In this document: positions 19,997 to 25,348 of the stretch, one piece after another
How positions within the stretch are numbered: the stretch's first letter is position 1
Layout: each line of letters opens with the position of its first letter
Source of the DNA: Yoonia sp. R2331
Lineage (GTDB): Bacteria; Pseudomonadota; Alphaproteobacteria; Rhodobacterales; Rhodobacteraceae
NCBI RefSeq assembly: GCF_041103235.1
Contig: NZ_JBGCUN010000003.1
Coordinates: forward strand, 248,001-312,000
Direction of reading: 5' to 3'
DNA: 64,000 nucleotides
Position numbers and translations under genes: made by a program
The notes under the pieces: generated by a model
The model's database searches: none
What the model saw: the letters and a program-made list of their open reading frames with translations, nothing else
What the model was told of the DNA's origin: nothing

Positions 19997-21199
<1,203 letters not shown>

Positions 21200-21201
<2 letters not shown>

Positions 21202-21838
21202 AATCACTTGGATTTTTCTCTTGGCACAAGATGTTGTGGACTGGTGCGAAAGAACGGCGATGATGTGGACTGACACCGTGTCTTTTGAGTCCCGCTTTGT
21301 GCGCAGGCGTCGGATAGCCTGCGTTTTTCTCCCAGCCATAGCCGGGATGCTGTTGCGCCAAATCCACCATCAGACGGTCGCGCCACACTTTGGCCACAAT
21401 TGAGGCCGCCGCGATGCTGAATGATCGTGCGTCGCCCTTCACAACGGTCTCGCACGGCAGGTTCAGACCGCGCGGCACCATATTGCCGTCGATCAGCGCG
21501 TAATCGGCCGGTGTGCGCAACCCGCCCAGCGCACGGACCATCGCGATATGGCTGGCGCGCAGGATGTTGTGCTGGTCAATCTCGGCCACGCTGACGTCGA
21601 CAATGCAGACATCCGCGCTCTCCATGATCGCATCATAAAGGGCATCGCGCCGCTTAGCGCTCAACTTCTTGCTGTCGTTCAAACCCTCAGGAATACGGTC
21701 AGGGTCCAAAACAACAGCCGCGGCCGTCACCGGCCCTGCCAAGGGGCCACGCCCGACCTCATCCACCCCGGCGATACGGGTATAGCCGCGCAGATGCGCG
21801 GCCGTTTCAAAGTCAAAGCTGGGGGTCAGGGGCAACAT
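21200..21838 (-). CDS. rnhB: Ribonuclease HII
   Basis: RNase HII removes ribonucleotides and RNA primers from DNA. The metal-binding DEVGRGPLAGPV motif (DEG-type, here D-E-V-G-R-G) lies near residue 26. The further acidic site is in ALIDGN, and VKGDARSFSIAAASIVAKVWRD is typical. It is 212 aa from the ATG at 21838; a GTG at 21868 is an alternative. It lies just upstream of ccrM on the same strand, so transcripts may be shared, although ccrM has its own regulatory-looking upstream region. Confidence 0.95.
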
Positions 21839-21874
21839 GGCCCGTTTTGACCGGACGGACACCCGCACCGCAAG

Positions 21875-22500: not shown

Positions 22501-22670
22501 CGTTTCACCTTTCGTTTGCGCGCCCTTGGCAGAGGTGCGGGACGCCCGGTGAAACCAATTTGGTGGCAGCAACCTCCGCCAAACAATATCTGGCTCTGGT
22601 TATCGGATTTCGGCGGGGGTAACATGGCCCGATATTGAATATCAGCACCACAATGGGAGACATGAGAGCC

Positions 22671-22952
22671 ATGAAAACGCTGACTTTCCTCATCCCTGTG
22701 CTGCTGATGGCAGCCACTGGCGCGCAGGCGGCCTGCTATGCCGACTACAAGGCCAAGCAGGACAACCCGCTGCGGCTGCACTATGGCGTGGCCGAGATTA
22801 ATGGTGACTGCACCGTGGATCGCGCCCGCAACCAACTGACCCGCCGTCTGAATGCCGACGGTTGGACCCTGTTGAACGTGCTGGGCGTCTTTGACGACGC
22901 GGGGCTCGAGGAACGAAAGGACAGCGCTGGTGACTACTTCCTCCGCTACTGA
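22671..22952 (+). CDS. Small secreted protein of unknown function
   Basis: A 93-aa protein. The signal peptide MKTLTFLIPVLLMAATGAQA is followed at once by a Cys (ACYADYKAKQDNPLRLHYG). A second Cys lies at GDCTVDRA, and the C-terminus ends GDYFLRY. The two Cys could form one disulfide. No known family was recognised; it looks like an uncharacterised Rhodobacterales conserved protein. An ATG three codons upstream (22662) has GGGAG close by and is an alternative start. Its 3' end overlaps the start of the membrane winged-helix protein by 23 bases, so the two are translationally coupled. Confidence 0.78.
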   Translation: MKTLTFLIPVLLMAATGAQAACYADYKAKQDNPLRLHYGVAEINGDCTVDRARNQLTRRLNADGWTLLNVLGVFDDAGLEERKDSAGDYFLRY

Positions 22953-23628
22953 AGCGCGCGAGATCGGCAACCGGATTGTCGTTGGCGGGATTGTTGCGAT
23001 TGTCGTGATCTTGGGTGTGGCTGCTGTCTTGCTCTTTATCAACCTGCCGGATGCCAACGCCTTTAACGCGCGGGTCGAACAGCTGTTCATCGAGAACGAC
23101 AACCTGACTTCGAACGCGGAAATCAAGCTGCTGGAAATCCTCGCCGGATCGGGCACCGCGTTTTCGGACACGCTGTCATCCTACCGTTTTGTTATCTTCG
23201 TGCTGCTCGTCTTTGCCACTGCCCTGCTGATCGCGGCGGTGGCCTTTCTGGTGATGCTGATCGCGCTCAACCGCCGCATGGGCCAGATTGAGCGTAAGGG
23301 GATTGAGGTGAATTCTCTTTATATCTCGCGCGACGAAAAGGCGGTCTATCTGAATGACTTCCAGTTCAAGCTGACCGATGCCGCGATGGAAACCCTGTCG
23401 GTCTTGGCAGAGGCGCGGATGGATGATGAAGTCATGTCCGGCGCACAGATCGAAGGGGTGATCTCGGGCCGTGATGCCTCCGATTGTGACGAGGCAGCGG
23501 GCGCGACCCGGATCAAACGCTTGCGCGACACGCTGGGCAACCAGATGGTCAGCGAGCTGTTGGTCAAGAACATTGCGCGCAAGGGCTACATGCTGGCGAT
23601 CGATAAAGACGTTATTCGCATGCGCTAG
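22930..23628 (+). CDS. Membrane-anchored winged-helix (OmpR/PhoB-type) regulator
   Basis: A 232-aa protein with an unusual layout. A short N-terminus is followed by a membrane helix at about 16-38, a roughly 45-residue external loop (39-83), a second helix at about 84-110, and a cytoplasmic C-terminal domain. The domain looks like a trans_reg_C winged helix (EKAVYLNDFQFKLTDAAMETL, given in part, with a late RIKRLRDTLGNQ and IARKGYMLAID). This resembles ToxR/CadC-type one-component membrane regulators but with reversed order (anchor first). A GTG at 22930 with AAAGGAC eight bases before is preferred. It is coupled to the small secreted protein, which may be its ligand or target. Confidence 0.82.
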   Translation: MTTSSATEAREIGNRIVVGGIVAIVVILGVAAVLLFINLPDANAFNARVEQLFIENDNLTSNAEIKLLEILAGSGTAFSDTLSSYRFVIFVLLVFATALLIAAVAFLVMLIALNRRMGQIERKGIEVNSLYISRDEKAVYLNDFQFKLTDAAMETLSVLAEARMDDEVMSGAQIEGVISGRDASDCDEAAGATRIKRLRDTLGNQMVSELLVKNIARKGYMLAIDKDVIRMR

Positions 23629-23680: not shown

Positions 23681-24517
23681 TCAGCGCAATTCGGCCATCG
23701 GGACGAAATCCATATCAGTGAAATCCTGGTTGTCTCCAGCCATCGACCAAACAAAGCTGTACCGCCCCGTGCCCGCACCGCTGTGAATGGACCAGCCGGG
23801 GGACAACACAGCCTGTTCATTCGTCACGAGCATGTGCCGGGTTTCAGTTGGTTCGCCCATGAAGTGGAACATCCGCGTCTCTTCGGCCATATCGAAATAG
23901 AGATAGACCTCTGACCGGCGGTCGTGCGTGTGGCAGGGCATTGTGTTCCAGACACTGCCATCCATGATTGTGGTAATCCCCATCACGAGCTGGCAACTTT
24001 CGCAGACATCGGGGTGAATATACTGCCGCAAGGCGCGGACGTTGGCGTCCGACTGCGTGCCCAGTTCAAGCAGGTTGGCATCTTCTGGCGCAATCTTCTG
24101 CGCTTTGTAAGCATGGTGCGCAGGCGTGCTGACAAAGTAATACCGGGCCGGATTTGCGGCGTCGTCACTGGCAAAGATCACGTCCATGATGCCCATCGGC
24201 AGATAAAGACAATCGCGCCCTTTCAAGGCATGGCTTTCGCCATCTGCAGTGACCGTCCCAGGGGCGCCGATATTGATGATGCCCACTTCGCGGCGATCCA
24301 GAAAATTCGGTGATCCAATTTGCTTGCTGGATTTCAGTGCGAGCGCCGCGCCGGTTGGAACCGCCCCACCCACAACGGTCCGGTCAAGGTGGCTGTAGGT
24401 CATCGTGACTTCGCCCGCGCGGAAAATATCCTCGATCAGATAGTTTTCACGCAGCGTCTGCGTATCGAACGTCTTGGTCTCTGAGGGGCTGCAGGCTTGG
24501 CGAATGGCGATGGTCAT
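23681..24517 (-). CDS. kduI: 5-dehydro-4-deoxy-D-glucuronate isomerase KduI
   Basis: KduI turns 4-deoxy-L-threo-5-hexosulose uronate (from unsaturated uronides) into 3-deoxy-D-glycero-2,5-hexodiulosonate. The 278-aa bicupin has the metal site CHTHDRRSEVYLYF (His 196, His 198, Glu 203) and further IHSGAGTGRYSFVW. CGGAGACAC lies before the ATG. It follows the gntR gene by 48 bases on the same strand. Its pathway partner KduD is encoded in the divergent TRAP operon, so both halves of the pathway are under the shared operator region. Confidence 0.96.
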   Translation of the reverse strand: MTIAIRQACSPSETKTFDTQTLRENYLIEDIFRAGEVTMTYSHLDRTVVGGAVPTGAALALKSSKQIGSPNFLDRREVGIINIGAPGTVTADGESHALKGRDCLYLPMGIMDVIFASDDAANPARYYFVSTPAHHAYKAQKIAPEDANLLELGTQSDANVRALRQYIHPDVCESCQLVMGITTIMDGSVWNTMPCHTHDRRSEVYLYFDMAEETRMFHFMGEPTETRHMLVTNEQAVLSPGWSIHSGAGTGRYSFVWSMAGDNQDFTDMDFVPMAELR

Positions 24518-24565
24518 TGTGTCTCCGAATTTTTGGTTGGACGCGCCCGTCAGGGCATTGGTGGG

Positions 24566-25348
24566 TTAGACGTTGACCAGATTGTTGAGGTCCGCATCGT
24601 GAATGAAAAAATCCGGGTTCGCATCGACGACATACTTGATGTGGTGTTGCAGGCCATTCAGGTGGATGTCCATTTTCTGGCGGGCAACCTCGGGTTCGTT
24701 GTTTTCGATGGCCGTAACGACGTCCGTGTGCTGGCCCAGCGCCATATGCATCCGGCCGGGTTCAGGCAGTGTCAGGCGGCGGAAACGGTCAATCTGCAGC
24801 TTGACCTGTTGGACCATCGCCCACAGACCCGGCAGGCGGCCGATCTCTGCTATCTTTTGGTGAAGCGCCTCATCAGATGCGTGGAAGCCCTCAAAATCGC
24901 CTAAATCGGCAAACTCGCGCTGCCGCTCAAGCAACGCATGCAGTTCAAGTTTCTGACTACGGGACGCTTCTTTTGCGGCGGCAACGGCTGTCACACCTTC
25001 CAGTGCGCGGCGCGCAATCAGAGCTTCAGGCAAAACAGACACCGGAATGCGCGCAACAAACGTTCCAGATTTTGGCGCGACCTCAAGCAGATCTTCACGG
25101 GCCAGCCGCAAGACGGCCTCACGGACGGGCGTGCGGCTGACACCAGATTGCGCTGCCAGTTCAGATTCCGAGATGGCAGCACCGGGCAGCAACTCCATCG
25201 AGACGATGCGATCACGAAGCTTTTGGTATTCGCTTTCCGCAAGCGTGGGCGCAACCCCGGAACGGAACCGCGCCTGACTGGTCGGCGAGGCGTTTTGCGC
25301 GCGTTTTCTTACATTTGACAACTGATGCACACCCATTGTTTTGGTCAT
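24566..25348 (-). CDS. GntR-family (FadR subgroup) regulator of the uronate locus
   Basis: A 260-aa regulator. The winged helix has SEYQKLRDRIVSMELLPGAAI and SELAAQSGVSRTPVREAVLRL (about 38-80), the standard GntR pattern. The C-terminal FCD domain is helical with metal-type His/Asp (for example HASDEALHQKIAE and HTDVVTAI). It probably senses a uronate-pathway intermediate and controls the divergent TRAP operon and itself plus kduI. The ATG at 25348 is weak in ribosome site; an ATG at 25336 is possible. A 6-3-6 perfect inverted repeat lies in the shared promoter gap. Confidence 0.93.
   Translation of the reverse strand: MTKTMGVHQLSNVRKRAQNASPTSQARFRSGVAPTLAESEYQKLRDRIVSMELLPGAAISESELAAQSGVSRTPVREAVLRLAREDLLEVAPKSGTFVARIPVSVLPEALIARRALEGVTAVAAAKEASRSQKLELHALLERQREFADLGDFEGFHASDEALHQKIAEIGRLPGLWAMVQQVKLQIDRFRRLTLPEPGRMHMALGQHTDVVTAIENNEPEVARQKMDIHLNGLQHHIKYVVDANPDFFIHDADLNNLVNV

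Follow-up and report, generated by a model that had tools for sequence, protein, structure and literature searches.

What might a small exported protein and a membrane-anchored winged-helix protein do together when their genes overlap on the same strand? This question is raised by the window, that is, the whole stretch of 64,000 nucleotides of Yoonia sp. R2331 that was analysed. The original prediction had described here a 93-residue signal-peptide protein with two cysteines, its gene overlapping by 23 bases that of a 232-residue protein with two membrane helices first and an OmpR-type winged helix last, and had taken the latter to be a one-component sensor. Both reading frames and the 23-nt overlap are present as described, and so is the divergent gene for a secreted protein sharing the upstream gap. 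Details of these features, with the names P1, P2 and P3 used hereafter, are presented in Table 1.

Table 1. Features of the P1-P2 locus, in positions of the window
Feature	Position	Strand	Description	Basis
DNA methyltransferase	19997..21109	-	CcrM-type, as we take it (N6_N4_Mtase + RAMA); conserved syntenic neighbour	
rnhB	21200..21868	-	ribonuclease HII; conserved syntenic neighbour	
P3	21964..22500	-	divergent exported protein, 178 aa, fast evolving, Arg/Asn-rich, four Cys	
A	22584..22590	+	half-site CAATATC, 47 bp upstream of O1	
O2	22599..22611	+	second, weaker copy GTTATCGGATTTC, 32 bp upstream of O1	
O1	22631..22643	+	inverted repeat GATATTGAATATC, predicted operator, 27 bp before P1 start	
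P1	22671..22952	+	ATG start, 93 aa, exported protein	ORF and alignment
P2	22930..23628	+	GTG start, 232 aa, membrane-anchored winged-helix regulator (predicted)	
P2 membrane helix 1	22975..23043	+	aa 16-38	sequence and helix in structure model
P2 predicted periplasmic loop	23044..23184	+	aa 39-85, 47 residues	sequence
P2 membrane helix 2	23185..23268	+	aa 86-113	sequence and helix in structure model
P2 winged-helix DNA-binding domain (predicted)	23314..23601	+	aa 129-224	Pfam profile, alignment, Foldseek

P2 opens with the two membrane helices that had been predicted, and the loop between them, put earlier at about 45 residues, is close to that length. The helices come first and a positively charged segment follows the second, which suggests that the C-terminus of P2 is cytoplasmic. 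All of the 33 aligned P2 members (out of 109 usable sequences) match the Trans_reg_C family (PF00486) at E≤0.1, with a best value of 8e-6; the P2 of the window scores 20.8 bits, under the curated Pfam cut-off of 26.2. With two hydrophobic helices and this match below the curated cut-off, P2 has the build of a transmembrane transcription regulator, and on its profile matches the C-terminal domain is classed as OmpR-type. The C-terminal winged helix of the original prediction is thus upheld at the level of sequence; the structure predicted for P2 is of low confidence (pLDDT 58, mostly under 60) and best in the membrane helices. The order of strands and helices in this weak model is plausible for a winged helix, and nearly all of the 50 Foldseek matches listed are of the OmpR/PhoB type, none of them significant (best E 0.47). 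No receiver-domain family was found in P2 by the Pfam scan, and the winged helix is preceded by the membrane hairpin. The recognition-helix region (residues 186-203) is invariant at 14 of its 18 positions. Mean top-residue frequency is 0.87 in the loop as compared to 0.69 in the first membrane helix, and such a conserved loop is suggestive of a partner or ligand. The window's genome contains a single P2 match.

P1 carries a signal peptide at about residues 1-20, ending AQA/AC as judged by eye. Cys22 and Cys47 are invariant in all of the 41 aligned sequences (chosen from 78 dereplicated, 108 usable) and therefore probably form a disulfide. The structure model is confident (mean pLDDT 87.9) and adopts a beta-beta-alpha-beta-alpha order. 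Pfam and NCBIfam scans of the window's P1 gave no match, a PDB sequence search returned nothing under E 0.8, and Foldseek found no significant known fold for the model (best E 0.68). PepSY_2 was considered as a relative and set aside as unconvincing, since its best Pfam match has an E of 0.008 and occurs in 5 of the 41 members. The P1 proteins of loci L021, L026 and L108 are only 79 residues long and stop before the last predicted helix.

The P1-P2 pair is real and conserved. In 108 of 110 loci, some of them near-duplicates such as L001 and L031, P2 is preceded by P1 in the same orientation, and the overlap is therefore not due to chance. Its length is 23 nt in 62 loci and 29 nt in 41, together 103 of the 108 same-strand pairs. 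The two loci lacking an upstream P1 are L096, which ends at a contig edge, and L029, where P1 is inverted and 1.3 kb away. Joint conservation of the pair had been set as a check beforehand, and it was borne out in an even draw of 198 Rhodobacteraceae genomes representing 198 genera: P2 is present in 157 of them and P1, sought by a separate profile search, in the same 157, while neither was found in the remaining 41, where P2 was rechecked by profile search. P1 matches are weak in three of the 157 (G064, G142 and G152), and in each a P1-like reading frame lies just upstream of P2. Both genes are retained even in G103, G184, G040 and G041, in which P2 has relocated and P1 has stayed beside rnhB. 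A class-wide draw of 289 genomes gave P2 matches in four, all of them Rhodobacteraceae. On a two-gene tree of the methyltransferase and RnhB with 54 tips, the 22 pair-lacking tips fall into 16 separate all-lacking clades, and presence or absence of the pair requires 12 changes by parsimony against a lowest value of 13 among 500 shuffles.

The surroundings of the pair are largely shared as well. The methyltransferase-rnhB-P3/P1-P2 block (methyltransferase and rnhB at 19997-21868) is syntenic in most loci and is found on plasmids in two Parasedimentitalea strains, whose records list P1, P2 and P3 as hypothetical proteins. P3, which shares the operator-bearing gap with P1, is matched next to the pair in 91 of the 110 loci, with an identity of 24-51% in all but four of these; a Pfam scan of P3 gave no match. 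The downstream genes at 23681-25348, presumably encoding a KduI-like isomerase and a GntR regulator, adjoin the pair only in the window's own locus (L001) and the near-identical L031. No paper on the pair was found in a literature search which had most subscription journals outside its coverage.

A 13-bp inverted repeat, GWTATTGMATAWC, is located just upstream of P1 and is common to P1 upstream regions. After dereplication of these regions from 106 to 94, at least 11 of the 13 positions match in 91 of the 94, compared with 0.7% for shuffled sequence, and the match is perfect in 61. In 89 of the 91 matching regions, 26-30 bp separate the end of the motif from the start codon of P1. In the window it corresponds to O1, and the spacing of half-site A is likewise kept, since 59 of 65 aligned relatives have a CAATAWC whose first base lies 46-48 bp upstream of that of O1. 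Repression at O1 is plausible from its position so close to the P1 start codon. P1 keeps a site matching at 12-13 of 13 positions in the four relocated pairs and in one convergent pair (G148), whereas a relocated P2 has a site of its own only in G184 (11/13). The other three relocated P2 genes are without an operator, and self-regulation of P2 is therefore not universal; judged by these sites, the constant part is the control of P1, unlike the control of P2, which would fit P1 as a regulated feedback element. The relocated P2 of G184 (L155, 5927-5939) has an A-type half-site and an operator-like repeat of its own, as though P2 had taken along a piece of the P1 promoter or a copy of it.

The same motif, with the TTGM centre of O1, is present before an unlinked small exported gene, DUF5333, which usually resides beside nuoG (nearby in 14 of the first 16 loci). 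The DUF5333 site in the window's genome reads GATATTGAATAGC (L181). A matrix built from 17 DUF5333 sites alone beats the 99% null in 92 of the 94 P1 upstream regions. Near-tandem divergent duplicates of DUF5333 occur at L342/L351 (G123), L426/L433 (G039), L421/L432 (G105), L343/L352 (G063) and L425/L434 (G141). A whole-word text search of the same literature found no paper naming both DUF5333 and Rhodobacter.

A strict form of the motif, GWTATTGMATADC, occurs 217 times in the 157 pair-bearing genomes and 21 times in the 41 pair-lacking ones, P1 sites included, against 22 and 4 times for a reversed control; 15 of the 41 pair-lacking genomes have such sites. Among the strict-motif matches listed, 25 of 63 pair-bearing non-P1 loci adjoin DUF5333, as do three of 18 pair-lacking loci (G008, G096 and G194). 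A signal-peptide gene lies at most 220 bp downstream of 18 of the 39 pair-bearing sites which were read among the matches listed and are not beside DUF5333, as compared to 1 of 15 pair-lacking sites (p 0.0055; DUF5333 and P1 excluded), the background at AT-rich control positions being 0.158. The signal-peptide rule is our own and crude, with L382 probably counted wrongly and L307 overlooked, and many of the 39 are without a sensible target and may be chance sites.

Several candidate targets recur at these sites. An OmpA/glycine-zipper lipoprotein is found in G086, G147, G053 and G027, with a 12/13 site in G000 and G485. Cytochrome c-like proteins have a Pfam match in G000 and G144, and related CxxCH proteins are seen below threshold in G116 and G121; the gene adjoins that of an aminotransferase, which we take to be hemA, in G000, G144 and G116. 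Copper-binding proteins of the plastocyanin/azurin type (cupredoxins) are found in G160 and G011. A GMC oxidoreductase cluster (L313, L322, L360 and loosely linked loci) was dropped as a target because its site lies over or beyond the gene and pair-lacking genomes are included.

We propose that P1 and P2 constitute a sensor of the co-component type, in which P2 would bind the inverted repeat and control its own operon together with genes for exported proteins. This we consider probable as regards P2, and we are less sure of the part given to P1. P2 would be held in the inner membrane by its hairpin, with the OmpR-type winged helix in the cytoplasm, and would bind GWTATTGMATAWC at the membrane, probably as a dimer. 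Its targets would be its own operon, through O1, O2 and half-site A, and further DUF5333 beside nuoG, the OmpA/glycine-zipper lipoprotein and small periplasmic electron carriers. Exported P1 would act on the predicted periplasmic loop of P2 as a partner or feedback signal; we infer this contact with both proteins modelled singly. Since P1 would be a product of the operon under the proposed control of P2, its level in exported and correctly folded form could report the state of the envelope to P2 in a homeostatic loop.

It is conceivable that P2 is the regulator and P1 does not touch it, being a co-transcribed target with a periplasmic job of its own, a reading that overlaps with our proposal as far as P2 is concerned. 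Like the other predicted targets, P1 is an exported protein, and it is less conserved than P2, mean column identity being 48% over the 41 aligned P1 sequences and 80% over the 33 of P2. However, P1 is kept with P2 in every one of the 157 genomes, even where the two are unlinked, whereas DUF5333 was not found in 5 of the 24 pair-bearing genomes tried, and the strongly conserved loop of P2 points to a partner or ligand. We therefore regard a P1 which is only a target as somewhat unlikely.

The proposed role of P2 as reader of the motif bears on what happens to unlinked sites where the pair is lost. DUF5333 was sought in 30 and then 35 chosen genomes. Each gene was given the score of its best motif match within a stretch of at most 400 bp preceding the conserved domain, and a match at 11 or more of the 13 positions counted as positive; secondary copies (L351-L353 and L432-L434) and a sub-cut-off DUF5333 match in G017 (L431) were left out. 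The motif is present before DUF5333 in 17 of 19 pair-bearing genomes, G039 and G183 being those in which it was not found. It is present in one of the 10 pair-lacking genomes that are at least 90% complete and in four of the 14 of any completeness, about 1% being the value for shuffled sequence. Fisher's test gives p of 5e-5 against the near-complete pair-lacking genomes and 5e-4 against all, relatedness being a concern for such counts. The exception among the near-complete genomes is G194 (98% complete), with a 12/13 motif and no pair found. The others are less complete (77-86%), namely G008 and G096 (both 13/13) and G028 (11/13), and the pair may simply be unsequenced in these. G119, in which the flank is cut, matches at 9/13 and was counted as negative.

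Nine near-complete genomes lack both the pair and the DUF5333 motif. The five of these that are on the tree (G106, G071, G023, G167 and G045) lie inside pair-bearing clades, in four or five separate places; support for the nearest nodes is 0.49-0.96, and the separate placement of G045 and G071 is weakly supported (0.42-0.77). The conserved pair, the motif and the joint loss of motif and pair in most cases are thus directly computed. The unlinked DUF5333 site seems to lose its motif upon loss of the pair, as would be expected if P2 reads the motif, and we infer that P2 is the protein which binds it. The one-component sensor of the original prediction gains support from this tendency of the motif to be lost with the pair.

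The same observations have to be weighed against a different reader, namely another transcription factor of which P1 and P2 are targets, lost as one pathway, with P2 possibly binding elsewhere. What ties the motif to P2 is correlation; G194 and the three less complete genomes keep the DUF5333 motif with no pair found, and three relocated P2 genes are without a motif while P1 kept one. On the other hand, the predicted winged helix of P2 has a recognition-helix region that hardly varies, and genomes without the pair mostly lack the motif at unlinked DUF5333, a loss seen in several parts of the tree. CenR, an OmpR-type envelope regulator known from this family and a candidate for such a factor, was rejected, since it reads a TGA-N8-TGA direct repeat according to the accessible part of its description (PMC9275681), as against the 13-bp inverted repeat here. 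Another reader of the motif therefore appears decidedly unlikely to us, and binding by P2 remains the reading that we prefer. The inverted arrangement is nevertheless a departure for a protein like P2, as OmpR-type proteins often bind direct repeats (PMC9275681, accessible part).

A relaxed pattern, GWTATN3ATAWC, was searched in 14 genomes, and 60 sites from 10 of these were read and their neighbour genes grouped. This grouping brought out Zur-type boxes and, as another recurrent target, DUF5333 with its TTGM centre. It occurs 2-11 times per genome in 15 pair-bearing genomes, including that of the window, and 1-6 times in six pair-lacking ones. A large regulon was rejected since the relaxed motif is not clearly commoner with the pair, and the regulon of P2 would accordingly be small. 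That the P1 sites are Zur boxes and the pair a part of zinc homeostasis is highly improbable and was rejected. The relaxed pattern is indeed found as well at a FUR-family/ZnuA gene pair and at a gene for a CobW-type GTPase, but the middle bases vary there, whereas TTGM is kept at the P1 sites and at most of those of DUF5333. Moreover, none of the targets found here is a known zinc gene, and loss of the pair mostly goes with loss of the DUF5333 sites. At L251, L255, L264, L274, L295, L302 and L305 (families checked for L255), Zur-type boxes lie between znuA and a gene of the FUR family; their half-sites, GWTAT/ATAWC, are those of the P1 operator, and their centre is variable.

Rhodobacteraceae are mostly marine, and in this large family the pair, listed only as hypothetical proteins in the two annotated records examined, is present in 157 of the 198 genera sampled. 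We see an even chance that it represents an undescribed and widespread envelope-homeostasis circuit of the family, an "inside-out" co-component system in which P1 reports on export and folding and tunes exported and respiratory-chain-associated proteins. If so, the family would have a dedicated envelope-sensing switch with a DNA operator and a predicted regulon, DUF5333 would receive a function by association beside a complex I gene, and co-component signalling would extend from enteric virulence cassettes to a conserved role with reversed architecture.

Known systems resemble the pair in single features. CpxP is a small periplasmic protein under the control of the pathway which receives its feedback, through the histidine kinase CpxA. 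P1 would resemble CpxP as a feedback protein, whereas P2, unlike the kinase CpxA, is a predicted winged-helix regulator. P2 fits the broad definition of transmembrane transcription regulators, a DNA-binding domain with at least one membrane region. The accessible part of a census of such regulators (PMC10269533) counts 56% as single-pass, puts those with two or more membrane regions at '17 and 27%', and names neither a member of the P2 family nor a class with a C-terminal winged helix. ToxR and CadC have an N-terminal DNA-binding domain, one helix and a C-terminal periplasmic sensor (PMC5936718, accessible part). Like them, P2 joins an OmpR-type winged helix to a membrane protein with no receiver domain found; unlike them, its order is reversed and it has two helices, and it is not counted in that family. 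CenKR of Rhodobacter sphaeroides, from the same order, is a two-component system whose OmpR-type regulator acts on the envelope (PMC9275681, accessible part), as is proposed here for P2.

The closest parallel is found in the co-component systems VtrA/VtrC, ToxR/ToxS, TcpP/TcpH and PsaE/PsaF, where, as far as the accessible part of the source describes them (PMC9214523), a membrane-tethered HTH regulator works with a small partner in the periplasm and no phosphorelay; the gene of the partner is a neighbour of that of the regulator, usually downstream and overlapping it. The earlier statement that no known system has this make-up thus holds, as far as searched, for the exact architecture but not for the general idea, which is published as co-component signal transduction (PMC9214523, accessible part). 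Like these systems, the gene of P1 adjoins and in nearly all loci overlaps that of its regulator. Here, however, the gene of the partner precedes that of the regulator, and P2 has its DNA-binding domain last, behind two membrane helices. P1 looks soluble, a loop of 47 residues makes up the outer part of P2, and the pair is conserved within one family, in contrast to the fast-evolving virulence cassettes. The P1 model also differs from the lipocalin-like VtrC, as it has no lipocalin barrel and no significant fold match in the PDB. With gene and domain order reversed, a partner that looks soluble, a different fold and a conserved system, P1-P2 is, by the features tested, not a member of the VtrA/VtrC superfamily, but it would work like a co-component system.
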